A DNA stretch of 60,836 nucleotides, taken from NCBI GenBank assembly GCA_039196715.1, contig JBCCUP010000024.1, positions 1 to 60,836 of the forward strand, given 5' to 3'. Each line of letters begins with the position of its first letter. The stretch's first letter is position 1. Positions 5,949 to 27,652 of this stretch are shown here, one piece after another. This DNA comes from Pseudomonadota bacterium (GTDB taxonomy: Bacteria; Pseudomonadota; Gammaproteobacteria; CALCKW01). The position numbers were made by a program, and so were the translations under genes. The notes under the pieces are model-generated. The model searched no databases, was not told the origin of the DNA, and saw only the letters and a program-made list of their open reading frames with translations.

Positions 5949-7118
5949 ATGACGATCGGTGAGCCCGGCTGGGTGCTGCACGCGGGCGCGGTGCTCGATG
6001 GCGACAGATTCCACGACCGGCCATTGCACTTCGGGACAGGGCGCGTTGTGGACACCCCGGTCGCGCCCGCGGCCGCGCGTGCATTCGACGCGGCTGGGTT
6101 GCTGATTGTGCCCGGTATGGTCGACGTGCACGGCGACGCCTTCGAGCGCAACATCGCGCCTCGGCCAGGTGTGACCTTCGATCTCGGTGCGGCGTTGATC
6201 GAGACCGACCGACAACTGGTCGCGAACGGCATCACCACGGCGTACCTCGCCGTGACCGTGTCCTGGGAGCCGGGCTTGCGCAGCCTCGCGACGGCGGTCG
6301 AGCTGATGCACGCACTCGAGCGTGTCCGACCGAGCTTGATTGTCGACCTGCGTGTGCAGATCAGGTGGGAAATCACCGCGACGGAAGCCGTTGACTCCGT
6401 GTGCAGGTGGTTGTCGACACAACCGACACCCACGCTCGCGTTCAATGATCACTTCACCACACTCCTCGGCAACCCGCGCGAGGTTGCCAAACTGCCGCTG
6501 TACGCGGCGCGAAGTGGACTGTCGCCGGGGGCGTACCGTGCGCAGTTGAAGCGGGTGATCTCGCAAGGCGACGCCATCGACCGGGCGGTCAAGCGCATCG
6601 CCAACGTCGCTCGAACCCGCGGCGTGCCGATGTTCGCCCACGACGAGACCTCGATTGACATGCGACGGCACTACCGGGCTTTGGGCGTGGCGGTGTGCGA
6701 GTTTCCGCTGACCGTCGACACGGCGCGTGAGGCCCGCGCTCACGGCGAGGCAGTGGTGTTGGGTGCGCCCAACGTCGTGCGCGGTGGCAGCCACACCGGT
6801 GCGGTGCACGCCGGCGGTGCCATTGCCGACGGCCTGTGCACCGTGCTGTCAACGGACTACCACTACCCGGCGCTGTTCGGCGCGGCAGCGACGTTGGCGG
6901 GCAACGACCTCGCACGCCTCGCCGAGGCGTGGGCGCTGGTGTCCCGCAATGCCGCAGTGGCGGTGGGCCTGTCAGACCGGGGGACGCTGGCGTTGGGCCA
7001 GCGCGCTGACGCCATTGCCTTGAACTGGACAGCACATGGTCCGTCGATCAACGCGGTGTTCGTGCGGGGTCGGCCGGTGTTCCTGAGTGAGCCTGAGCGC
7101 GTTCAGCGAACGCTGTAG
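5949..7118 (+). CDS. phnM: Alpha-D-ribose 1-methylphosphonate 5-triphosphate diphosphatase
   Basis: A 389-residue amidohydrolase-superfamily protein carrying the PhnM hallmarks VDVHGDAFERNIAPRPGV (metal-binding His/Asp, about residues 57-74), FNDHF, FAHDETS and LSTDYHYPALF. PhnM removes pyrophosphate from ribose 1-methylphosphonate triphosphate in the carbon-phosphorus lyase pathway. The length matches the family and no key motif is missing. No other phn gene lies in the window: the neighbours are a lipase and a BLUF protein, so it is either a stray copy working with a distant phn operon or has been recruited to another phosphoester. The ATG at 5949 has only a weak upstream purine run. Confidence 0.88.
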   Translation: MTIGEPGWVLHAGAVLDGDRFHDRPLHFGTGRVVDTPVAPAAARAFDAAGLLIVPGMVDVHGDAFERNIAPRPGVTFDLGAALIETDRQLVANGITTAYLAVTVSWEPGLRSLATAVELMHALERVRPSLIVDLRVQIRWEITATEAVDSVCRWLSTQPTPTLAFNDHFTTLLGNPREVAKLPLYAARSGLSPGAYRAQLKRVISQGDAIDRAVKRIANVARTRGVPMFAHDETSIDMRRHYRALGVAVCEFPLTVDTAREARAHGEAVVLGAPNVVRGGSHTGAVHAGGAIADGLCTVLSTDYHYPALFGAAATLAGNDLARLAEAWALVSRNAAVAVGLSDRGTLALGQRADAIALNWTAHGPSINAVFVRGRPVFLSEPERVQRTL

Positions 7119-7143
7119 TCCGCCTGGCGCGGCCCTCGCTCTT

Positions 7144-7614
7144 TCAGTGAATGGTGCTGGTGCGCTCGATGCTCTCGACGCATTCGCCGGCTTTGTGCAA
7201 GCCCGATATACGCGACAACGTGCCCTGCAGCGCGGTGGTCCAGCGTGCCTTCTCGACCAGCCGTGGCGACCGCCCGCCGATGGGTTCGGCGATGGCTTTC
7301 TCAAGCGAGGTTTCGGGCAGAGAACCCCAATGCACGTAGCGCATGCGCCAATGCGGGAACCGGCGTGTGCGCAGTTCAGGTTCCTCGAAAGTCTGTATTA
7401 CGCTGTGGCGGTCGTCTGAGTGGATCCTGTCCATGATGCGTGAGACGCGGGTGTCCGGTCCCTCGATGTACTGGAAAAAGTAGGTGTTGTAGAAGCACAG
7501 GTAGCCGGTGACATCAAAGACTTCGTTCTGCACCGCCGACACGTGGGCTATCTCCCAGGCACGCGTGTCGTTGAGCTCGATCGCTGCGCTGCTGTAATAC
7601 AAGATCGCTTTCAT
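7144..7614 (-). CDS. BLUF-domain blue-light sensor 1
   Basis: A 156-residue single-domain protein. It shows the BLUF pattern: a tyrosine in the first strand (AILYYSSA), an Asn in SAVQNEVFDVTGYL and the flavin-contacting glutamine in FFQYIEGP. BLUF proteins bind FAD and rewire the Tyr-Gln hydrogen bonds on blue-light absorption. After about residue 100 comes a short helical tail with no output domain, so signalling would have to be by protein contact. The start is the ATG preceding KAILYY; longer starts upstream give low-complexity sequence. A second BLUF gene sits directly upstream on the same strand. Confidence 0.88.
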   Translation of the reverse strand: MKAILYYSSAAIELNDTRAWEIAHVSAVQNEVFDVTGYLCFYNTYFFQYIEGPDTRVSRIMDRIHSDDRHSVIQTFEEPELRTRRFPHWRMRYVHWGSLPETSLEKAIAEPIGGRSPRLVEKARWTTALQGTLSRISGLHKAGECVESIERTSTIH

Positions 7615-8018
7615 GGTCGCCCCGCGTGAGTGTGGGGAAGGGGGCCGCGAACCGACTGCGGTTGACGCGCGCAGTCCCACTGGACCGTTTTGGCCCGATG
7701 GCGTGACCGCCAGGGTGCGCCTCGACACCCACCGTGTACCAACGGCTCACGCTATTGGTATCGTTGCACCAAAAAGGTACACCATCGCAGACGCGTGTAC
7801 ACAACACTTTTTGCCACTACGTGGATGCCCTCATGCGATTCGGCTCGGAATGCGACAGGCACGTGGTGCGCGCTCGGTTGTCTGGTCTGACAGGTTGGCT
7901 CGGGCTGTGAACCGCCGTGTTGGTGACTGATCAATTTGGGGTATCCAGCCCCTGCGAGACGGCGTGTGAGCGTGCTCGGCCCGCTCTGTTGTGTGGCGGT
8001 GAACACCCGCTGAGCGGG
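7615..8018. other. Intergenic region between the two BLUF genes
   Basis: A 404-bp gap presumably holding the promoter of the downstream BLUF gene (minus strand). It contains an inverted repeat TACCAA (7737-7742) and TTGGTA (7755-7760) with a 12-nt spacer, a possible operator. I see no RNA gene, and its reading frames look like noise. Confidence 0.35.
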
Positions 8019-8504
8019 CTACGGCGTTGGATGGGTGACCGGGCCCCTGGCCGACTCGATCACTGCGGCGGGCTCGAGCAGCGACGCCGAGTCGCCCAGT
8101 TGCGCCAGTGTGAGCTTCAGCGCAGAGGACAACACCGCGACGTTGTGCGGCGTGTGTCGCACCGTGTCGAAGCTGACCTGCATCAGGTGCTCGAGTCGGG
8201 TGTCCGGCGCCTCGCCCGACGCCACAACCTGCATGCTCCAATCCGGAAAGCGACGGTGCTCCAGCCCGTGCTCTTCGCGTGTGCACAGCACGCGGTGGCG
8301 TGCGTCCTCCCGGATGTGGATCAGCAGCGCGTCGACGGTGGCGCTGTCACCTTCCAGGTACTGAAAGAACAGGCCATCCTGCGCACTCAGGTAGCCGGTG
8401 ACACCGCAGCCGTGATTGCGGGCAGCGGAAACACGGGCGATGTCCCAGGCGATCTGCATGTCCAGCGTGCCGCGTGCCTGACTGAAATACGCTAGGGCCT
8501 TCAC
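8019..8504 (-). CDS. BLUF-domain blue-light sensor 2
   Basis: A 161-residue BLUF protein, paralogous to the one downstream: tyrosine in ALAYFSQARG, RNHGCGVTGYL, and glutamine in GLFFQYLEGD. The C-terminal 60 residues form a divergent helical tail, again without an effector domain. The start is GTG at 8504, which places the first beta strand at residues 1-8; an upstream in-frame start would add 27 residues unlike BLUF proteins. The 404-bp gap to the next BLUF gene suggests separate promoters. The pair may sense light with different thresholds or bind different partners. Confidence 0.85.
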   Translation of the reverse strand: MKALAYFSQARGTLDMQIAWDIARVSAARNHGCGVTGYLSAQDGLFFQYLEGDSATVDALLIHIREDARHRVLCTREEHGLEHRRFPDWSMQVVASGEAPDTRLEHLMQVSFDTVRHTPHNVAVLSSALKLTLAQLGDSASLLEPAAVIESARGPVTHPTP

Positions 8505-17560: not shown

Positions 17561-18571
17561 CTACGCGTTTCGGCTGTGCCAGACCGTGCGAGCCCAGTCG
17601 AGTGCGGTGTCGGCGTCGTCGCCGGCCTCGCCGTGCCGCACCGCGGCCAGGGTCGCAATCACGGCCTGCTCGGCGTAGGCGTGTGGGGCGCCGTCCCAGA
17701 CCCGCTGCAGGGTGTCGGGTGCGTCGAGTGCGCCGCGATCCCACTGGCCGGTGGCGGGCAGGGTGATCTCGGAGGCGACGCCCGCGCGGGCACAGCGCAA
17801 CACCACAGGTCGCTCGGGCCGCACTTCGGCCTCGCCGCCCTCGCCGCGAAACGCGAGCACCGCCGGGGCACGGTCGAGCACGGCGGTGTCCTGGTGGATC
17901 ACATCGAAGTTGCGGTGAAACACGCCGTGCACGCTGAGTGGCGCGGACAGCGGGTTCAGCATCCGCGCAACGGTGTGCAGCGGCACCCGCAATCCGAGGG
18001 TCTGCTGCAGCATGAGCAGCGACGACAGGGTCGGACTGAACGCCTGCAGAGGCACGTAGCTCAGGTGGTGTTCGGCGAGGTGCGATTGGGCCTCGGCCAG
18101 CGAGCCCGCCAGCGGGATGCCAAGTGCGGGCAGCGCGTGTTCGGTGTACAAGCGGGTTGGTGTCGGTCCGACCTGGCCGTGCAGCAGCACCCGGACACCC
18201 TGCTGCGCCAGTGCCTTGACTGCGAGCAGGTACCACGGCAGGTGACGACGCTTGCCGGCGTAGCAGCCCCAGTCGATGTCGGGTCGGATGCCGTCGGGCA
18301 CGCGCAGGCGGGCGCGCACGGCGTCGGTGAACCCGGCCGCCTCGTCCGGGGTTTCCTCGCGCACGCGGATCAGCACGAAAAAGGCCCCGATCTGCACGTC
18401 ACAACAGTGGCCGTCGAGCACCATGCCGAGCGCGTCCCGCGCTTCGTCTCGGGTCAGCGAACGCGAGCCGCGGCGGCCCTTGCCGATGATTCGCAGGTAG
18501 TCGGTGAACGTCACAGCCGGCGCCGTCGAGGCGGGGGGCAGCTCGGTGGGGCAGGTGGCCGACACGCTCAC
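17561..18571 (-). CDS. TrpD2/YbiB-like glycosyltransferase-family protein
   Basis: A 336-residue protein of the anthranilate phosphoribosyltransferase fold. The N-terminal helical domain (TRDEARDALGMVLDGHCCDVQIGAFFVLIRVREETPDEAAGFTDA) is typical, while the phosphoribosyl loop is divergent (LLHGQVGPTPTRLYTEHALPALG), as in YbiB/TrpD2 proteins, which bind nucleic acid rather than make tryptophan. It starts with GTG 18571 overlapping the upstream stop by four bases. It is the last gene of the nitrate assimilation operon, a position such genes occupy in other proteobacterial nas operons. Its role there is unknown. Confidence 0.78.
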   Translation of the reverse strand: MSVSATCPTELPPASTAPAVTFTDYLRIIGKGRRGSRSLTRDEARDALGMVLDGHCCDVQIGAFFVLIRVREETPDEAAGFTDAVRARLRVPDGIRPDIDWGCYAGKRRHLPWYLLAVKALAQQGVRVLLHGQVGPTPTRLYTEHALPALGIPLAGSLAEAQSHLAEHHLSYVPLQAFSPTLSSLLMLQQTLGLRVPLHTVARMLNPLSAPLSVHGVFHRNFDVIHQDTAVLDRAPAVLAFRGEGGEAEVRPERPVVLRCARAGVASEITLPATGQWDRGALDAPDTLQRVWDGAPHAYAEQAVIATLAAVRHGEAGDDADTALDWARTVWHSRNA

Positions 18572-19581
18572 AGGGCGGTCACGCAGCGCGCCGCTGCCGT
18601 GTGGGCAGCGCCGGCCTCGTCGACCTGGAAGCCAAGCGTGCGCAGGCGTGCCGCCACGGCCCGCTGGGTGACGTCGGTGAACCAGGCCCCGGTGCCGAGC
18701 ACCACCACGCGATGACCCGGTTGGCTGAGGTTGGCGAGCTGCTTGGCCACCACGGGTACACCCGAGGTCGGCGCGAGCAGCGTGTGCCGGGCGGCGTCGC
18801 GGCGGCAGAGCTCGCGCAGGGTGTGCGGCAGGGCGTCGTCGAACACGACAGCATGCGCGCATTGCAGGCGGCGCAGCTCACCCAGGGTGACGCGGTCGGC
18901 GTCGCGGTGGCGGAGGTCGAGCAGCGTGATGTGCGCGGGCTGGCTGGCCAGGCACGGACCGTGGTCGATCAGGCTGTCCAGCGCCCGCGCGGCCGCCGCC
19001 ATGTCGCCCTCGACGGCGAACTGCGCCACCGTGCCGTGGTGGGCGGCCTCCCAGACAGCGCGGCGACCCTCGGGTGCAACGGTGGCTTTCACCTTGGCCC
19101 GTCGGCTCGCGTAGAGCGACGCGAGTGCGCCGAGTGCACTCGGCAGCAGAGCCTCGATCTGGCCCTTGACCGAGCGCGCCAGCACCGGCGATGCGCCCCC
19201 GGTGCCGATCGCCACCGTGACCGGTGCGCGGTCGACGATCGCGGGCACGGTGAAACTGCAGAGGCCGGGGCGGTCGACCACGTTGACTGGCACGCCGCGC
19301 GCGCAGCAATCGGCGCTGATCACCGCGGCGGTGTCGGCACACACGTCGGCCACGATCACCAGGCGGTAGCGGCCTTCGCGCCAGGGTGCGTCGCCGCGGG
19401 CGCGGTGAATCTCGCCTGCGGCCAGGGCGCGTTTCAGGTCTGTGCACGGGTCGTCGGTGTGGATGTCGATGTGGGCGTGAGCGGCGGTGAGCAGCCGTGC
19501 CTTGGCCGCCGCCTCCTCACCCCCACCGACGACCAGGCACGGCTGTTGGTTGAGATTGAAAAAAACGGGAAATTGCTTCAT
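18568..19581 (-). CDS. cysG: Siroheme synthase-like protein: precorrin-2 dehydrogenase with degenerate SUMT half-domain
   Basis: A 337-residue protein. Residues 1 to about 215 match the CysG N-terminal module: FPVFFNLNQQPCLVVGGGEEAAAKARLL (NAD site), NVVDRPGLCSFTVPAIVDR, and GTGGASPVLARSVKGQIE. This module oxidises precorrin-2 and inserts iron to make siroheme. Residues 217-337 align with the first half of the uroporphyrinogen methyltransferase domain (RVTLGELRRLQCAHAVVFDD, ELCRRDA), but its GAGPGD loop reads DLRHRDA, the GGDPFIFGRG loop reads GTGAWFTDVTQ, and the second half is missing. The methyltransferase is therefore probably dead. ATG 19581 overlaps the nasA stop by four bases. Confidence 0.82.
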   Translation of the reverse strand: MKQFPVFFNLNQQPCLVVGGGEEAAAKARLLTAAHAHIDIHTDDPCTDLKRALAAGEIHRARGDAPWREGRYRLVIVADVCADTAAVISADCCARGVPVNVVDRPGLCSFTVPAIVDRAPVTVAIGTGGASPVLARSVKGQIEALLPSALGALASLYASRRAKVKATVAPEGRRAVWEAAHHGTVAQFAVEGDMAAAARALDSLIDHGPCLASQPAHITLLDLRHRDADRVTLGELRRLQCAHAVVFDDALPHTLRELCRRDAARHTLLAPTSGVPVVAKQLANLSQPGHRVVVLGTGAWFTDVTQRAVAARLRTLGFQVDEAGAAHTAAARCVTAL

Positions 19582-22232
19582 GGCGTCGCCCCCTTGCGGG
19601 CAGGCACGTGGGTGGTGATCAGGTGTTGCAGTTCCGGGCGGCACGAGCCACACCCGGTGCCTGCGTTGACCCGCTTGCCAAGGCACGCGATGTCGGCCGC
19701 GCCCTCAACGGTGATGGCGTGCACGATCGTGCGCTCGCCGACCGCGTTGCAGGCGCACACGATCCGACCGACATCGGGTTGATCCGCTGCCGGTACACCG
19801 GCGAGCAGCGCCATGCGCGAGTGCGGCTCAACCGGCGCGGTAAACAGGCTCTGTGTGTGGGCACGCTCCGGCAACGCGCCGGTGCGGGTCAGGGCGACCA
19901 GCGCGATGAGCCGGTCGCCGTCGAGCAGCGCAGCGCGCACGGTGCCGCTCAGGTTGTCCTGGTAGAACACCCAGGGGACCCTGCTGCCGTGGCCGCTCAG
20001 GCGTTGCAGGTCGTCGAGGCTCGGCTCGGCGTCGTCACCGGCCAGCTCGAGTCGGTGCACGGCGCCCTGTGGCACGCGGCACCAGTAATCGGCGTCAGGT
20101 GTGGTCGGGCGTACTGTGCTGACAATGCAGGCTTGCCACCGGATCTCGAATGCGCGTGCACTCACGTGTGCGTGTTTGAATGCCGGTTGGCCGGACAGCG
20201 GGTCGACCGCCGCCGGAATCAGTTCGCACACTGTGGCGGCGCCGGTGAACTGGCGGTTCCAGTGAATCGGCGCAAAAACCTGGCCCGCCGTGACACCGGG
20301 GGTCAGACGCGCGCGCCCGATGTAGCGGCCGTTCGCGGCAGACAGCTCGACAAGGGCGCCATCGCTGACGGCCAGGGCGTCAGCGTCAGCCGGGTTGAAC
20401 TCGACGAAGGGTTCGTCCCGGTGCTGCAGCAGCCGGGCACTCAGGCTGCTGCGGGTCATGGTGTGCCACTGGTCGCGGCAGCGGCCAGTGTTCAGCAGCA
20501 GCCGGTTGTCGTGCTGCGGCACCGCCTGCGGCACCACGGCCACGCAATGGGCTCGGCCCGATGCGGTGTAGAACCGGCCATCGGCAAACGGGCGAGCTGG
20601 TCTGCGGCTGGTGGTCATCGGCCACGGCGTCGGGCGCAGGCTGTCGTACTCGTCGTTGCTGAGCGATTGCAGTGCGCCGATGTTGAAGGCGCGGCTGCCG
20701 TCACCGTTCAGCAGGTGCGACAGTCGGGCGTGTTCGCGAAAGATGTCGGCGGCGTTCGGGTAGTCGAAGGCGGCGCCGAAGCCCATCGCGGCGGCCACGT
20801 CGCAGACGATGCGCCAGTCGGCACGGGCGTTGCCGGGGCGCGGCAGGAACGCGCGCTGGCGCGAGATGGTGCGCTCGGCGCTGGTGACGGTGCCGTCCTT
20901 CTCGCCCCAGGCGAGCGCGGGCAGCAGGACGTCGGCAAACGCGGTGGTGTCGGTCTCCCGCATGCAATCGGAGACGGCGACGAACTCGCACCGGGCGAGC
21001 GCGTCGCGCACGCGCGTGCTGTTCGGCACGCTCACTGCCGGGTTGGTCGCCATGATCCAGATTGCCTTGACCTCGCCCGCGTGCACGGCGTCGAAGAGGT
21101 CGACGGCCTTGAGGCCGGGCGCGCGGGCCATCCGCGGACCGCCCCAGTAGTTGGCGATGGCGTCGACCGCCGTCGGGTCATCGAAGTCGCGGTGCGCAGC
21201 AAGTTGGTTGGCGAGACCGCCGACCTCGCGGCCGCCCATGGCGTTGGGTTGTCCGGTGATCGAGAAGGGGCCGGTACCGGGCTTGCCGATTCGGCCGGTT
21301 GCGAGGTGGCAGTTGATGATCGCGTTGCCCTTGTCACTGCCGTTGGTGGACTGGTTGATGCCCATCGAGAACAGCGTCACCACCTTCTCGCTGCGGGCGA
21401 ACAGGCGGTAGAAGTCGATCAACTGTTCGGTTGACAGGCCGGTCGCTGCAGACACCTGCGCGAGGCTGCCGTGCGCGCGCGCGGCGTCGAGTGTGGCGTC
21501 GAGGTTGTCGCAGTGCGCGTCGCACCAGGCTGGGTCGAGCGCGCCGTGGCCTGCCAGCCAGTTCAGCAAGCCGACGAACAGCCAGTCGTCGCTGCCAGGC
21601 GCGAGGGCGAGGTGGCGGTAGGCGATGTTGCAGGTGGCGGTGGTGCGGGGGTCGATCACCACCACGCGCCGGTTCGGGTGGGCCTGGTGTGCAGCGACCA
21701 GGCGCTGGTACAGCACCGGGTGGGCCCAGGCAGTGTTGGAGCCGACCAGGACGACGAGGTCGGCTTCCTCCACATCGCGGTAGTCGCAGGCGACGATGTC
21801 TTCGCCGAAAGCGCGCTTGTGGGCAACCACGGCGGAGGCCATGCACAGGCGCGAGTTGGTGTCGATATTGGCGCTGCCGATGAACCCCTTCATCAGCTTG
21901 TTGGCGACGTAGTAGTCCTCGGTCAACAACTGACCGGAGCCGTAGATCGCCACCGCGTCCGGCCCGAAGCTGTCGATGACAGCGCTGAACCGGTCGGCGA
22001 CCGTGTTGATCGCCGCTTCCCAGCTTGCGCGCTTGCCGTGTACCTCGGGGTACAGCAGGCGCCCGTCGTGCCCGACGGTCTCGTGCAGGGCATTGCCCTT
22101 CACACACACGCGGCCACGGTTGCTCGGGTGTGTGGGCGAGGGGCTGACCTGCTCGGCGCGTGCGTCGAGCCGCACGCCGCAGCCCACGCCGCAGTACGGG
22201 CAGGTGGTGTCAACCCGCGGCTGTGTCGACAT
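19578..22232 (-). CDS. nasA: Assimilatory nitrate reductase catalytic subunit
   Basis: An 884-residue molybdopterin oxidoreductase. The N-terminal 4Fe-4S site uses C11, C14, C18 and C43 (CPYCGVGCGV ... GRVCVKG). The molybdenum-cofactor region includes NIDTNSRLCMASAV and TNGSDKGNAIINCHLATGRIG, then TNPAVSVPNS and the C-terminal molydopterin-binding beta barrel. Residues 820-880 form a BFD-like 2Fe-2S domain (VCACNAVGERTI ... GTGCGSCRPEL). It reduces nitrate to nitrite in the cytoplasm. All key cysteines are present and the length is normal. It overlaps nirD by 23 bases and the cysG-like gene by four, in the order nirB-nirD-nasA-cysG-trpD2. Confidence 0.94.
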   Translation of the reverse strand: MSTQPRVDTTCPYCGVGCGVRLDARAEQVSPSPTHPSNRGRVCVKGNALHETVGHDGRLLYPEVHGKRASWEAAINTVADRFSAVIDSFGPDAVAIYGSGQLLTEDYYVANKLMKGFIGSANIDTNSRLCMASAVVAHKRAFGEDIVACDYRDVEEADLVVLVGSNTAWAHPVLYQRLVAAHQAHPNRRVVVIDPRTTATCNIAYRHLALAPGSDDWLFVGLLNWLAGHGALDPAWCDAHCDNLDATLDAARAHGSLAQVSAATGLSTEQLIDFYRLFARSEKVVTLFSMGINQSTNGSDKGNAIINCHLATGRIGKPGTGPFSITGQPNAMGGREVGGLANQLAAHRDFDDPTAVDAIANYWGGPRMARAPGLKAVDLFDAVHAGEVKAIWIMATNPAVSVPNSTRVRDALARCEFVAVSDCMRETDTTAFADVLLPALAWGEKDGTVTSAERTISRQRAFLPRPGNARADWRIVCDVAAAMGFGAAFDYPNAADIFREHARLSHLLNGDGSRAFNIGALQSLSNDEYDSLRPTPWPMTTSRRPARPFADGRFYTASGRAHCVAVVPQAVPQHDNRLLLNTGRCRDQWHTMTRSSLSARLLQHRDEPFVEFNPADADALAVSDGALVELSAANGRYIGRARLTPGVTAGQVFAPIHWNRQFTGAATVCELIPAAVDPLSGQPAFKHAHVSARAFEIRWQACIVSTVRPTTPDADYWCRVPQGAVHRLELAGDDAEPSLDDLQRLSGHGSRVPWVFYQDNLSGTVRAALLDGDRLIALVALTRTGALPERAHTQSLFTAPVEPHSRMALLAGVPAADQPDVGRIVCACNAVGERTIVHAITVEGAADIACLGKRVNAGTGCGSCRPELQHLITTHVPARKGATP

Positions 22233-22581
22233 GGTCGGCAGAGATCATCAGTTGCACGCGGCCGCCCTCTATCCCGCCCGGAAGGCTGCCTGCGCTGTGT
22301 TTCGGTGACTCGATGCACACGCCGTCGCGCAGACGGTAGTGGTGTTTGTACAGAGGTGACGTGACCGTCGGCTCGCCGTCGATGTGGGCGACGATGCCGC
22401 TCGCGAGCACCGCGGCGGGCGACGCCATGGGGTCGCAGTTGCCAATCGCAAACACCTGGTCGGTGTTGTTGCCCGGCAGGTAGAAGAGGGCGGCCTGGGT
22501 GTTGTCGACCAGGGCGGCCACGCCGGCAAAGGGCTGCAGCGCCCCGACATCGCGGATGTCCGTCCAGCTCTCAGTTTGCAT
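22210..22581 (-). CDS. nirD: Nitrite reductase (NADH) small subunit
   Basis: A 123-residue Rieske-like NirD: WTDIRDVGALQPFAGVAALV at the start, FAIGNCDPMASPAAVLASGIV, and SPLYKHHYRLRDGVCIE near the end. As in other NirD proteins the Rieske cluster ligands are absent. The subunit associates with NirB. It overlaps the nirB remnant by 11 bases and nasA by 23, indicating translational coupling. It appears intact although the large-subunit gene upstream is not. Confidence 0.9.
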   Translation of the reverse strand: MQTESWTDIRDVGALQPFAGVAALVDNTQAALFYLPGNNTDQVFAIGNCDPMASPAAVLASGIVAHIDGEPTVTSPLYKHHYRLRDGVCIESPKHSAGSLPGGIEGGRVQLMISADHVDTAAG

Positions 22582-22945
22582 GCGACTTCAGCTCCATGCG
22601 AATCAGGGGTTTGATCTCGCCGCGCTCACGGGTGAATTGCACATTGCGGTCACGCGCGTCGGTGTTGACGAAGGTGTTGACGTGTTCCAGCCGCTCCGAT
22701 GAGGCCAGCGTGGTGATCCACTCACACTGGTGGCTCGCGACGATGTGCGCCATCTGCGCGTCGAGCTTCTCCAGCCAGTTGCTCGTGCGTTGCAGGCAGT
22801 CGCCGGTGCGCACGTAGAACATCAGGACGCGGTCGATGTAGCGAACCAGGCCGTCGTCGCTGAGGTCGGTGGCAAAGAGGTCGGCGTGGCGGCCGCATGC
22901 CGCCGTTGCCGCAGACGAACTGGTTCCAGCCGTTCTCTGTGGCAA
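22571..22945 (-). pseudogene. nirB: NirB C-terminal remnant, out of frame with the N-terminal part
   Basis: The last part of a NirB large subunit: RHADLFATDLSDDGLVRYID, then a run ending HQCEWITTLAS and FVNTDARDRNVQFTRERGEIKPL. The preceding conserved stretch VIATENGWNQFVCGNGGMRP is encoded just upstream, but in another frame. At about 22896-22900 the DNA reads ATG CGG CCG CCAC where the family expects ATG CGG CCG CGC CAC, a net loss of two bases. About 17-20 residues usually found between the WLE and QM motifs also appear to be missing. The piece has no credible start of its own. Either the gene is dead or the assembly is wrong here. Confidence 0.85.
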
Positions 22946-24154
22946 TCACGCCGCCAATCCCTCGCAGTAGGCACGTCCGAACAACAAGCGGTCCCGCAGC
23001 GCGTGCGTGTCGGTCCCGTTCTGCATCACGCTGTGTAGCCAGGGACCATCGCGAACGTCGCCGTACAGCATGATCGCGACCAACCTGCCGTCCTCGAGCA
23101 CCAGCTTGCGCCGCGCCGGTGTCAGCGGGTCGTCGAAGAGGATCACGTGGTCGGTGTGGGCGTTGACGTCGCCGGCGGAGAACACATCGATGCCGGCGAC
23201 TTTCAATTGGGTGGCGTGCTCGCGCCGAACGTAGGGCTGGCCTGGTCGGCCGAGCAGGGTGTCGGCCAGCACGGCCGCGTGGTCGCGGATCGGCGGCACC
23301 AGGCCGACCGTTTCGCCTGCGCACTCGGCACATTCGCCGAGCGCGAAGACCACCGGGTCGGCGGTTTGCAGGCTCCGGTCGACGACCACACCGCGGTTGA
23401 CCGCCAGGGCCGCGTCGACCGCGAGCTCGGTGCGCGGTTCGATGCCGGTGGCAAAGACGAGCTGTTGCGCCGGGATCTCGGTGCCGTCGTCGAGGGTCAC
23501 TGACTGCACGGCGGTGTCGCCGTTGACCGTGGCGAGCTCGGCGTTGAGATGCACGCTCAGGCCGCGGGCGACGAGGTTGTCCAGCAGCAAACGACCCGCC
23601 GCGTCGTCGAGTTGTCGGTTCAGCAGCCACCCGTTGCGGTGCACCAGCGTGACGGTGCGGCCGCGCGCCAGCAGGCCGGCCGCGGCCTCGAGCCCGAGCA
23701 GGCCGCCGCCGAACACGACGGTGTGCTCCGAGGCCGGTGTGTCGATCAGGGCGCGGGCGTCGTCCAACGTGCGGAACACCTGGACACCTGCCAGGGATGC
23801 GTCGGCCGCCGCCGGCACACGGGCGCGGGCGCCGGTGGCGAGCACCAGCTTGTCGTAGGCGAGGTCGTCGCCGCTGTCGAGGTGCACGCGCTGCGTGCTG
23901 CGGTCAATCGACGTCACCTGTACACCCGTCATCAGCCGCACTCCGTTGCCGGTGTACCAGTCGGTGTCACGCAGGGCGATGGCGCTGCTGTCGGCGTCGC
24001 CGGCGAGCACCTGCGAGAGTTGCACGCGGTTGTAGGCGCTGTGGTGTTCTGCGCCGATCACCGTGACGGAAACCGCCTGCTGCTGACGGCGTTGAAAGAG
24101 CTCGCCAAGCAGGCAGTCTGCCGCGATGCTGTTGCCGACGACCACGATGTGCAT
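22946..24154 (-). CDS. nirB: NirB N-terminal FAD/NAD(P)H module, gene truncated
   Basis: A 402-residue product: FAD-binding start MHIVVVGNSIAADCLLGEL, LVLATGARARVP, a second nucleotide-binding motif VVFGGGLLGLEAAAGLL, GECAECAGETVGLVPP, and a rubredoxin-reductase-like C-terminal region ending LRDRLLFGRAYCEGLAA. This is the NAD(P)H dehydrogenase half of NirB. The family continues for about 430 more residues with the BFD 2Fe-2S, ferredoxin-like and siroheme/4Fe-4S domains. Here a stop follows directly, and the downstream DNA resumes near the family's end. The product could at most act as a diaphorase. ATG 24154 is one base from the nrtD stop. Confidence 0.85.
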   Translation of the reverse strand: MHIVVVGNSIAADCLLGELFQRRQQQAVSVTVIGAEHHSAYNRVQLSQVLAGDADSSAIALRDTDWYTGNGVRLMTGVQVTSIDRSTQRVHLDSGDDLAYDKLVLATGARARVPAAADASLAGVQVFRTLDDARALIDTPASEHTVVFGGGLLGLEAAAGLLARGRTVTLVHRNGWLLNRQLDDAAGRLLLDNLVARGLSVHLNAELATVNGDTAVQSVTLDDGTEIPAQQLVFATGIEPRTELAVDAALAVNRGVVVDRSLQTADPVVFALGECAECAGETVGLVPPIRDHAAVLADTLLGRPGQPYVRREHATQLKVAGIDVFSAGDVNAHTDHVILFDDPLTPARRKLVLEDGRLVAIMLYGDVRDGPWLHSVMQNGTDTHALRDRLLFGRAYCEGLAA

Positions 24155-24155
24155 C

Positions 24156-25031
24156 TCAGGCCACCCCTCGGCTGTCTTCGACCACGGCGGCCTCGGTGTC
24201 GGCGGACTTGGGTGTTGTGCCACCGGCGGCTGCCGGCAGCGATTCCACCTTGCGCTGTTTCTCGTAGAGGAAGCGCAGCAGCGCCTCGCGTTTCTGGTTG
24301 TAGACCGGGTCCTTTGCCAGTGCCAGGCGGTCGCGTGGGCGCGCCAGCTCGACAGTTTCGATCTCGCCAATGGTGGCGGACGGCCCGTTGGTCATCATCA
24401 CGATGCGGTCGGACAACAGCACGGCTTCGTCGATGTCGTGCGTGATCATCACGACGATGTTCTTGAGTTTGGCGTGGATCGCCATCAGCGCGTCCTGCAA
24501 CTGTGCGCGGGTGAGTGCGTCCAGCGCGCCGAAGGGCTCGTCCATCAGCAGCACCCTGGGCTCCATCGACAGGGCCCGCGCGATGCCCACGCGTTGCTTC
24601 ATACCGCCCGAGATCTCGGATGGCCGCTTGTCGCGTGCGTGGATCATGTCGACCAGCTCGAGGTTGTGGGCGATCCAGTCGTTGCGCTCGGCCTTGGTCT
24701 TGGATGTCTTGAACACCACGTTGACCGCGAGTTCGACGTTCTGCCATACCGTCAGCCAGGGCAGCAGGGAGTGGTTCTGAAACACCACTGCGCGGTCCGG
24801 GCCTGGTCCGTCGACCTCCCGGCCGTTGACGAGGGCACCACCACGGGTGCCAGGGGTCAAGCCTGCGATGACGTTCATGACCGTGGACTTGCCGCAGCCA
24901 GAGTGTCCGATCACCGAAATGAACTCACCGTCCTGCACGTCGAGGCTGACGTTCTTCAAGGCCGTGAACACCCCGGTCTTGGTGGGGAACTCGACGTCCA
25001 GATGACTGATCTGCAAATAGGCGTTTTTCAT
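24156..25031 (-). CDS. nrtD: Nitrate ABC transporter ATP-binding protein
   Basis: A 291-residue ABC ATPase: Walker A GHSGCGKST, Q-loop VVFQNHSLLPWLTVW, signature SEISGGMKQRVGIARAL, Walker B VLLMDEPFGALD and the switch MITHDIDEAVLLSDR. All motifs are intact. The sequence style (TPGTRGGALVNGREVDGPGPDRAVVFQ) is that of nitrate/sulfonate/taurine importers of the NrtD/SsuB group. A tail of about 30 residues beyond the domain is Ala/Thr-rich. GGAG lies about 9 nt before ATG 25031. It energises uptake through NrtB. Confidence 0.9.
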   Translation of the reverse strand: MKNAYLQISHLDVEFPTKTGVFTALKNVSLDVQDGEFISVIGHSGCGKSTVMNVIAGLTPGTRGGALVNGREVDGPGPDRAVVFQNHSLLPWLTVWQNVELAVNVVFKTSKTKAERNDWIAHNLELVDMIHARDKRPSEISGGMKQRVGIARALSMEPRVLLMDEPFGALDALTRAQLQDALMAIHAKLKNIVVMITHDIDEAVLLSDRIVMMTNGPSATIGEIETVELARPRDRLALAKDPVYNQKREALLRFLYEKQRKVESLPAAAGGTTPKSADTEAAVVEDSRGVA

Positions 25032-25044
25032 GACGGGTGCTCCA

Positions 25045-26037
25045 CTACCGTTTGGCGATCTCGGGGTCCCAGGCGACACGTCGCAACAGGAACAGCATCA
25101 GGCGGTCGAGCACGAAGCCGATCAGACCGATCGTGATGACCGCCACCATGATGCGGGCCAGGGATTGGGACGAGCCGTTCTGAAATTCGTCCCAGACGAA
25201 CTTCCCGAGTCCGGGGTTCTGCGCGAGCATCTCGGCGGCTATCAGGACCATCCAAGCCACGCCGAGCGACAACCGCAAACCGGTGAAGATCATCGGCAGT
25301 GAGGACGGCAATACGACGCGGCGGACGTGCGTGAGCCGGCCGAGGCGCAACACGCGTGAGACGTTTTGCAGGTCCGGGTCAATATTGGCTACCCCGACCG
25401 AGGTGTTGATGAGGGTGGGCCAGAGGCTGCACAGCATGACCGTCACGACCGAGTTGATGAACGACTTCTCGAACATCGGGTCGTCGGTGACGTAGACTGC
25501 GCTGACCACCATCGTGACCAACGGCAGCCACGCCAGGGGTGAGACGGGCTTGAAGAGCTGCACGAGCGGGTTCACCGCACTGTGCATGTTACGGCTCAAG
25601 CCAATCACGATGCCGGCGGGGATTGCAATCGCCGAGGCGAGCACGAAGCCGGTCAGCACCGTCAGGATGCTGGTAAGGATCTGGTCGAAGTAGGTCGGCT
25701 TGCCGGTGTACGCGCGAATCTTCGGTTTGAAGTCCGGTTCCTTCTCCAGGCGCTTGGCGTTCCGCTCTTCCTGACGCTGGTAGAAGGCTGCTTCCTTCTC
25801 TCGCTCGCGTCGGTGCTCGCTGACCAGGGCACTGGCCTGTTGACTGACCTCAACCGGGCCGGGAAACGCGCCCAGCGAGGTGTTGATCTGCGAGGCGACG
25901 ATGCTCCAGATCAGCAGGAAAGCGGCGATGCCGAGGACCGGCAGTACCGCGTTTTCGACAACCGTGCTGTTGAGCCAGGCGCCGAGGCGAAAACGCCGTG
26001 CCGGGTTGGGTGTCGAGAACGCGTTGATCACGCTCAT
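25045..26037 (-). CDS. nrtB: Nitrate ABC transporter permease
   Basis: A 330-residue inner-membrane permease with about six helices. The EAA loop appears as VANIDPDLQNVSRVLRLGRLTHVRRVVLPSSLPMIFTGLRLSLG. Between the first and second helices is a highly charged stretch (residues about 70-125, HRREREKEAAFYQRQEERNAKRLEKEPDF), probably periplasmic. The protein forms the nitrate channel with NrtD and the binding protein NrtA. It lies 13 bp before nrtD and 77 bp after nrtA. Confidence 0.9.
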   Translation of the reverse strand: MSVINAFSTPNPARRFRLGAWLNSTVVENAVLPVLGIAAFLLIWSIVASQINTSLGAFPGPVEVSQQASALVSEHRREREKEAAFYQRQEERNAKRLEKEPDFKPKIRAYTGKPTYFDQILTSILTVLTGFVLASAIAIPAGIVIGLSRNMHSAVNPLVQLFKPVSPLAWLPLVTMVVSAVYVTDDPMFEKSFINSVVTVMLCSLWPTLINTSVGVANIDPDLQNVSRVLRLGRLTHVRRVVLPSSLPMIFTGLRLSLGVAWMVLIAAEMLAQNPGLGKFVWDEFQNGSSQSLARIMVAVITIGLIGFVLDRLMLFLLRRVAWDPEIAKR

Positions 26038-26114: not shown

Positions 26115-27497
26115 TCAGAGGACGGTGTCGCCCTTGAGACCGATGGCCATCGCCTCGAGGTAGTCGTTGGGCTTGCTGCCGTCGAACACCACGCCGTCGA
26201 GGAAGTCATCCTGTGGCGGCCGGTAGCCGGTCTCGGAGTCGAAGGTCGGGAAGTCGTCCCCCGTGAAGAGGCCTTCGTTGATCAGCTCTTCCGCCGCGAC
26301 GCGGTAGATGTCCGGTCGGTACACCCGCTTCGCGGTTTCGTCGTACCACGCATCGGATTTGCCTTCGGAAATCTGGCCCCAGCGGCGCATCTGCGTGAGG
26401 TACCACACCGCGTCCGAGTAATAGGGGTAGGTCGCGTGGTAGCGGAAGAAGACGTTGAAGTCCGGGACCTCGCGGCGATCGCCCTTCTCGTACTCGAAGG
26501 TGCCGGTCATCGAGTTGGCGATGACGTCGAAATCCGCGCCCACGTAGTTCGATTGCGACAAGATGCGCACGGCTTCGGTGCGGTTGGCGTTGTTGTTCTC
26601 GTCCAACCAGTAGGCCGCGCGGATCAGGGCCTTGACGATTCGCACCGTGGTGTTCGGGTATTTCTCGGCAAAGGTCTTGGTGATGCCGAACACTTTTTCC
26701 GGGTTGTTCTTCCAGATCTCGTAGTCTGTTATCACTGGCACCCCGATGCCTTTGAACACGGCTTGCTGGTTCCAGGGCTCGCCGACGCAGTAGCCGAAAA
26801 TCGTGCCGGCCTCGAGCGTCGCCGGCATCTGCGGCGGCGGGGTCACGGACAGCAGCACATCGGCGTCCACCGTGCCGCTGGTGTCACCCTTGTGGGGTGC
26901 GTAATAACCGGGGTGCAAGCCACCGGCTGCGAGCCAGTAACGCAGCTCGTAGTTGTGGGTTGACACCGGGAACACCATGCCCATCTTGAACGGCTTGCCG
27001 TCGTCGGCGTAGGCATCGACAACAGGCTTGAGCGAACTCGCGCTGATCGGGTGTACCGGCTTGCCGTCGTCACCCGTCGGCACGTAGGGCGTCATTTCCG
27101 ACCACACTTTGTTCGAGACAGTGATGGCGTTGCCGTTCAGGTCCATCGAAAACGGGGTGATGATCTCGGCTTCGGTGCCGTAGCCAATGGTCGCAGCCAA
27201 CGGCTGGCCTGCGAGCATGTGCGCGCCGTCCAGTTGCCCATCGATCACGCCGTCGAGCAACACTTTCCAGTTGGCCTGCGCTTCGAGCTGGACGTAGAGG
27301 CCTTCGTCCTCGAAGTAGCCGTTTTCATAGGCGATCGCGAGGGGCGCCATGTCGGTCAGCTTGATGAAACCGAATTTGAGTTCGTCCTTCTCGGGGTAGC
27401 CGATCTCGGCGAGTGACGGTGCGCTGAAGAGGACGGAGGTGACGGTTGCAGCGATCAGTTTGAACGCATGCCGTTTGGAGAGTGAAACGCGCTTCAT
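26115..27497 (-). CDS. nrtA: Nitrate ABC transporter substrate-binding protein
   Basis: A 460-residue exported binding protein with a signal peptide ([23 protein letters not shown], cleavage near residue 30). The mature sequence contains the NrtA landmarks [47 protein letters not shown]-like [28 protein letters not shown] and the C-terminal [20 protein letters not shown]. It captures nitrate (or nitrite) in the periplasm for NrtBD. It is the first gene of the operon, and ATG 27497 is supported by the signal peptide. The candidate sigma-54 promoter lies about 150 bp upstream. Confidence 0.92.
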
Positions 27498-27544
27498 TGA
27501 GATTTCCCAGGTTCTCGGAACAGGTGCGCTTCGGTCAATCGGTG

Positions 27545-27583
27545 TGTGCTTTGCACATTGGGTGTCACGCGTTCGTGACGCCC
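27545..27583 (-). promoter_or_regulatory. Two adjacent hairpins in the nrtA leader
   Basis: On the minus strand, arms GGGCGTCACG and CGTGACACCC (27574-27583 with 27560-27569, AACG loop, one mismatch) are followed by TGTGC AAA GCACA (27545-27557). Two tandem hairpins in a nitrate operon leader recall the antitermination leaders controlled by NasR or NasT. The hexaloop A1/G4 signature of ANTAR targets is not seen, and no nasR or nasT lies in the window. Confidence 0.4.
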
Positions 27584-27652
27584 AACAATACAAGCCTGAA
27601 CTAATCGAATGCCGATGCTGTCGTTATGTCACCAGGGAAATTGCAGAGACTG

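Follow-up and report, generated by a model that had tools for sequence, protein, structure and literature searches.

The locus examined here raises the question of what becomes of nitrite in a bacterium whose genes for nitrate uptake and nitrate reduction are in place while its nitrite reductase gene nirB is broken. The window, i.e., the whole stretch of 60,836 nucleotides that was analyzed, is the entire contig C24 of a draft assembly of 4.95 Mb in 169 contigs (96.2% complete, 2.4% contamination). On its minus strand it carries a nitrate-assimilation (nas) operon in which nrtA, nrtB, and nrtD precede a FAD/NAD(P)H oxidoreductase gene (FAD gene), a relic of nirB, nirD, and nasA, in this order; a siroheme-synthase gene comes after it. 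The features are as follows, with amino acid identities given relative to the congener G003.

26115-27593, minus strand: nrtA-like nitrate ABC transporter substrate-binding protein, an open frame given as ORF extent with the start codon not fixed; the G003 orthologue lies in the same operon (88% identity)
25045-26037, minus strand: nrtB, nitrate ABC transporter permease (NCBIfam TIGR01183, E 1.3e-49, below the curated cut-off; 84% identity)
24156-25079, minus strand: nrtD, nitrate ABC transporter ATPase (NCBIfam TIGR01184, over the cut-off; 84% identity)
22946-24154, minus strand: FAD/NAD(P)H oxidoreductase of the NasC/Flp type, stand-alone and complete, 402 amino acids (Pyr_redox_2 and Rubredoxin_C domains; natural TGA stop)
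22571-22949, minus strand: nirB pseudogene remnant, the tail from Val690 on, interrupted by a frameshift and shortened by an internal deletion (HMM matches to NirB 709-757 and 715-758; tail aligned with nine intact NirB proteins)
22210-22581, minus strand: nirD, nitrite reductase small subunit, Rieske-like (NCBIfam TIGR02378, over the cut-off; 72% identity), intact but with its NirB partner missing
19578-22232, minus strand: nasA, assimilatory nitrate reductase (Molybdopterin, Molydop_binding, and C-terminal Fer2_BFD [2Fe-2S] domains; 71% identity)
18568-19686, minus strand: protein with a siroheme synthase CysG-type N-terminal domain (TIGR01470, over the cut-off; CysG_dimeriser and NAD_binding_7), downstream and in the same direction

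The frames of nrtABD, the FAD gene, nirD, and nasA are all open, in agreement with an earlier note on this DNA that had described nrtABD, nirD, and nasA as intact, and the nirD and nasA frames overlap. Beyond the operon, at 17564-18862 on the minus strand, lies a gene for a Glycos_trans_3N-domain protein (anthranilate phosphoribosyltransferase-like); G003 has a counterpart (74% identity) on the downstream side of its nasA.

The earlier note had taken the FAD/NAD module for the N-terminal half of nirB. Since it is an intact neighboring gene that is conserved in congeners, it is not the severed front half of nirB. In both congeneric genomes with orthologues, G003 (70% identity) and G001 (65%), the protein likewise has 402 amino acids and stops at the corresponding place. 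Next comes a full nirB as a gene of its own, with a GTG start codon that overlaps with the stop codon of the FAD gene in the tetranucleotide GTGA. Stand-alone FAD proteins are also present in nirB/nasA clusters of other families and of Paraburkholderia. The protein of the window has the length (about 400 amino acids), the FAD/NAD domains, and the place in a nasA cluster that characterize the NasC/Flp type; apart from flavin/NAD-binding domains it contains only a Rubredoxin_C-type domain. No siroheme/4Fe-4S (NIR_SIR), ferredoxin-like, or BFD [2Fe-2S] domain was detected in either the FAD gene or the nirB remnant. In Klebsiella, NasC is the NADH reductase that hands electrons to NasA (PMC2907700). 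Based on its position and content and on the literature on Flp and NasC, the FAD protein is the likely NAD(P)H electron donor of NasA, and the BFD [2Fe-2S] domain at the end of NasA is a plausible entry point for its electrons.

The damage is confined to nirB, and the catalytic core is absent at the place where the earlier note had put the break: the end of the FAD gene, LLFGRAYCEGLAA-stop (22946), runs directly into VIATENGWNQFVCGNGGMRP. In comparison with G003, nirB carries three lesions: a 2,067-bp deletion, a 2-bp frameshift, and a 66-bp deletion.

22946-22953, minus strand: junction of the 2,067-bp deletion, where CGGCGTGA at the end of the FAD gene matches the nirB codons around Val690 (alignment to G003)
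22888-22893, minus strand: 2-bp loss (frameshift) in the nirB remnant, between GGMRP and RHADLF (DNA alignment with G003 and G001)
about 22760-22766, minus strand: 66-bp in-frame deletion, corresponding to 22 residues in G003; its ends carry CTCGA direct repeats in G003 and G001 (alignment)

The large deletion spans nirB from its GTG start to Val690 and removes 689 of the 837 residues of the reference G003 NirB (~82%), including nirB's own FAD/NAD domain and every siroheme/Fe-S ligand, so the previous figure of about 330 residues was too low. According to residue arithmetic from the alignment, the GTG start has been fused in frame to GTG690, and the surviving tail starts just after the last siroheme/Fe-S cysteine motif (GCTRECAEAQSKDIG, followed by VIATENG). 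In the alignment to G003 (L045), the match is continuous through the FAD gene and then leaps from 6264 to 8324 with an 8-base overlap in the query. The sequence common to both junction ends is certain for 4 bp (GTGA) and could extend to 8 bp (CGG[C/T]GTGA), and both deletions in nirB carry short direct repeats at their ends. The 2-base loss before RHADLF had been noticed before, but the 66-bp deletion had been missed; the segment that it removed is present in all nine of the intact NirB proteins aligned. Against the NirB family TIGR02374 the best score was 321 bits, compared with a cut-off of 578, and the three lesions leave no single continuous reading frame. As far as can be judged from the sequence, the pattern is one of slippage or end-joining at short repeats, with decay following or accompanying it. 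Because the tail is still close to nirB (86% DNA identity to G003 in its first part), the gene was probably lost recently by comparison with the divergence of these species. In a three-taxon dN/dS comparison, noisy with dS near saturation and including partial sequence of NrtA and NasA, the estimated dN of the remnant on the branch of the window was about 2.4 times that of the congeners, a value that would fit a recent loss without deciding the matter. A frame of 124 amino acids at 22571-22945 on the minus strand reaches from just past the stop of the FAD gene to the start of nirD, and translation could stay coupled through the relic.

NIR_SIR domains were found in two proteins of the genome only, CysI on contig C116 and a NirA-family protein on contig C86. 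CysI is encoded beside CysJ, and the two constitute an ordinary and complete NADPH sulfite reductase. The C86 protein, on the other hand, scored 650 bits against the NirA family NF007126 (cut-off 523), contains two stretches each of the NIR_SIR and NIR_SIR_ferr Pfam domains, and has nitrite reductases as its best matches among solved structures. Its cluster cysteines are conserved and it carries the motif PRKFN, as do six relatives, whereas CysI and the single-subunit reductases of the congeners have PRKFK. Nitrite reductases typically have Asn in this K-x-N motif and sulfite reductases Lys, which is a hint rather than an assay. About 60 bp after the NirA gene begins a gene for a diflavin reductase (flavodoxin-FAD-NAD), and the NirA gene is unlinked to the nas genes. 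A search of the genome for another nirB, nirA, or nrfA, as had been suggested before, thus produced a nirA on C86 but neither the nirB core nor nrfA, and for nirK there was only an unconvincing sub-threshold match of 20 bits.

Contig C86 is probably native to the genome, because an esterase gene near the pair has matches in the congeners G003 and G002 and none in seven more distant genomes (ten other genomes tested) and because its GC content is similar. Given the contamination estimate, it could also be a mis-binned contig. The next gene after the NirA-diflavin pair, in the same orientation, encodes an aconitase X protein (L043:2418-4148), a neighbor that the related pair of Sulfitobacter does not have. 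The type of sulfite reductase varies within the genus: the present genome has the two-gene CysJI (C116, L044:2201-5721), while G001-G003 have a PRKFK reductase of about 550 amino acids in a single subunit (L085, L086, L087), which was not found in the source genome.

Among 321 genomes drawn from the class, NirA over the cut-off was present in seven, the source genome counted, and a full NirB is missing from all seven. In all six of the other NirA-bearing Gammaproteobacteria, NirA is located within the nasA cluster. The order is FAD-nasA-NirA-diflavin in four and nrt-FAD-NirA-diflavin-nasA in one, and in the remaining genome (G314) NirA forms the C-terminal part of a frame of 1402 amino acids adjoining nasA. 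This frame (L105:4325-8530) contains two cNMP-binding stretches, FAD_binding_6, and a weak BFD-like match ahead of the C-terminal NirA, and may encode a nitrite reductase fused to a reductase module of its own. Among the six Gammaproteobacteria and a Methylocystis plasmid there are two cases in which the NirA pair occupies the position of nirBD. Judging by gene content, NirA with a flavoprotein partner thus occurs in the nrt/nasA operon as an alternative to NirBD.

Three congeners lack both a NirA over the cut-off and the diflavin protein. In searches of a plasmid collection and the class sample, the closest relatives of the C86 NirA and its diflavin partner (58% and 55% identity) were encoded side by side on a mobilizable plasmid of Sulfitobacter, while the operon-borne gammaproteobacterial NirA proteins are only 38-45% identical to the C86 NirA. 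The flavodoxin domain of the C86 diflavin protein is absent from the two operon partners scanned. Since the plasmid-borne pair is closer than the NirA of other Gammaproteobacteria and the congeners do not have the pair, it was probably acquired horizontally.

Four known systems come close to this arrangement. The resemblance to Bradyrhizobium japonicum (diazoefficiens), with narK-bjgb-flp-nasC and an unlinked nasTS-nirA (PMC4724949), lies in a nitrate reductase and a small flavoprotein donor at one locus and a NirA-type nitrite reductase at another. There, NasC and Flp work with the unlinked NirA, both NasC/Flp and NirA are needed for growth on nitrate, and NirA is essential for growth on nitrite as well (PMC4724949). 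However, NirA of Bradyrhizobium is described as dependent on ferredoxin and is placed with nasTS, whereas the C86 NirA is paired with a diflavin reductase and the locus in the window keeps a nirB pseudogene and nirD. The nasFEDCBA operon of Klebsiella, in which NasC feeds NasA and NasB is the nitrite reductase (PMC2907700), likewise has transporter, small flavoprotein, nitrite reductase, and nitrate reductase in this order, with the FAD protein of the window in the place of NasC; it differs in that the NasB/NirB gene of the window is destroyed and a separate nirD is present. The plasmid of Methylocystis sp. MJC1 (NZ_CP107559.1) carries nrt, FAD oxidoreductase, NirA, "sulfite reductase alpha", and nitrate reductase genes, the NirA pair taking the place of nirBD, but there NirA is inside the operon, its partner is annotated as a sulfite reductase subunit alpha, and the annotation shows no relic of nirB. 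In Sulfitobacter pontiacus (NZ_CP139705.1), NirA and the flavodoxin-domain protein, the closest relatives mentioned above, stand in the same order as on C86, but the pair is plasmid-borne in an alphaproteobacterium and its function is a predicted one. On that plasmid (L108:1424-4955), no nitrate genes are annotated near the pair.

We consider it probable that nirB was lost recently from an otherwise intact operon and that it was displaced by the NirA-diflavin pair. NrtABD would import nitrate, and NasA would reduce it to nitrite with electrons from the FAD protein in the role of NasC/Flp. A deletion at short repeats joined the GTG start of nirB to Val690, the 2-bp frameshift and the 66-bp deletion arising after it or alongside it. 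Nitrite would then most likely be reduced to ammonium by the unlinked NirA-family siroheme reductase, which would receive electrons from NADPH via the adjoining diflavin reductase. The pair, probably gained horizontally, would have made nirB dispensable, and we infer that the gain came first and the loss second. NirD would be left over without a partner. Several points count against displacement: the C86 NirA is unlinked to the nas genes, it is distant from operon-borne NirA, its diflavin partner differs in the flavodoxin domain from the two operon partners scanned, nirD has been kept although its partner is gone, and C86 could be mis-binned. The family name of NirA is also no proof of an assimilatory role, because the NirA of Pseudomonas aeruginosa, a cyanide-tolerant enzyme, does not take over from NirBD when nitrogen is assimilated aerobically (PMC12688703).

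Alternatively, nirB may have been lost without replacement, with the nitrite from NasA being excreted or detoxified and the C86 pair serving elsewhere, for example as a second sulfite reductase or in the removal of nitrite during stress. The unlinked position of NirA, the example of P. aeruginosa, the retention of nirD, and the lack of both nrfA and a convincing nirK in the genome are in line with such a dead end. However, the KFN motif is of the nitrite reductase type, sulfite is already served by the complete CysJI, NirA is part of the nasA cluster in the six other Gammaproteobacteria and on the Methylocystis plasmid, and an intact nasA with its donor would be costly without the next step. 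The proposal of the earlier note that nitrate might be reduced only to nitrite is therefore not the likeliest outcome: as a NirA-family siroheme reductase with KFN and a diflavin partner is encoded on C86, we regard a nitrite dead end as unlikely.

It could also be that the loss is not real and that an assembly error or a mixture of strains conceals a living population with an intact nirB, given that the window makes up one entire contig of a draft assembly in 169 contigs. Collapse is unlikely as the cause, because three lesions fall in one gene and none in its neighbors, the repeat at the junction is at most 8 bp, and the rest of the assembly does not hold the missing piece. Collapse requires a repeat longer than the word used by the assembler, for which 8 bp is too short. 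In a search of the assembly with the TIGR02374 profile, the matches were the FAD gene, the tail remnant, and other proteins only, so the missing 2 kb was not found on any other contig. The two additional small lesions are confined to the remnant, the flanking operon genes are clean, and the window does not contain a single N. Altogether, we give an artefact of either kind very little credence.

That the remnant is a working small gene, its 124-aa frame keeping translation coupled to nirD and nasA, we consider hardly credible: the frame is open from the stop of the FAD gene to the start of nirD, and nirD and nasA do overlap, but its first ~18 residues are out of the nirB frame with no family match covering them, short open frames are expected by chance in GC-rich DNA, and the raised dN is weak evidence of relaxed constraint. 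As a new gene, this frame was likewise ranked low, its start being out of the nirB frame and unsupported.

Returning to displacement by NirA, there is in our estimate about an even chance that the replacement has been caught mid-way, with a mobile NirA and flavodoxin-type diflavin reductase having taken over, nirB reduced to a relic, nirD still intact, and nitrite reduction shifted from NADH-driven to NADPH-driven. Since the type of sulfite reductase also differs from that of the congeners (CysJI versus the single-subunit KFK enzyme), both siroheme reductases of the lineage may have been exchanged. A practical caution follows, namely that one broken gene is no basis for calling a nitrite dead end, as the function can sit on another contig. 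The findings also draw attention to the pair of NirA and a flavodoxin-type diflavin reductase, of which the substrate and the electron donor are directly testable. If the displacement is true, it would represent an enzyme replacement in nitrogen assimilation in which the old enzyme has left its relic at the original site and the new one has a plasmid-borne relative in another class.
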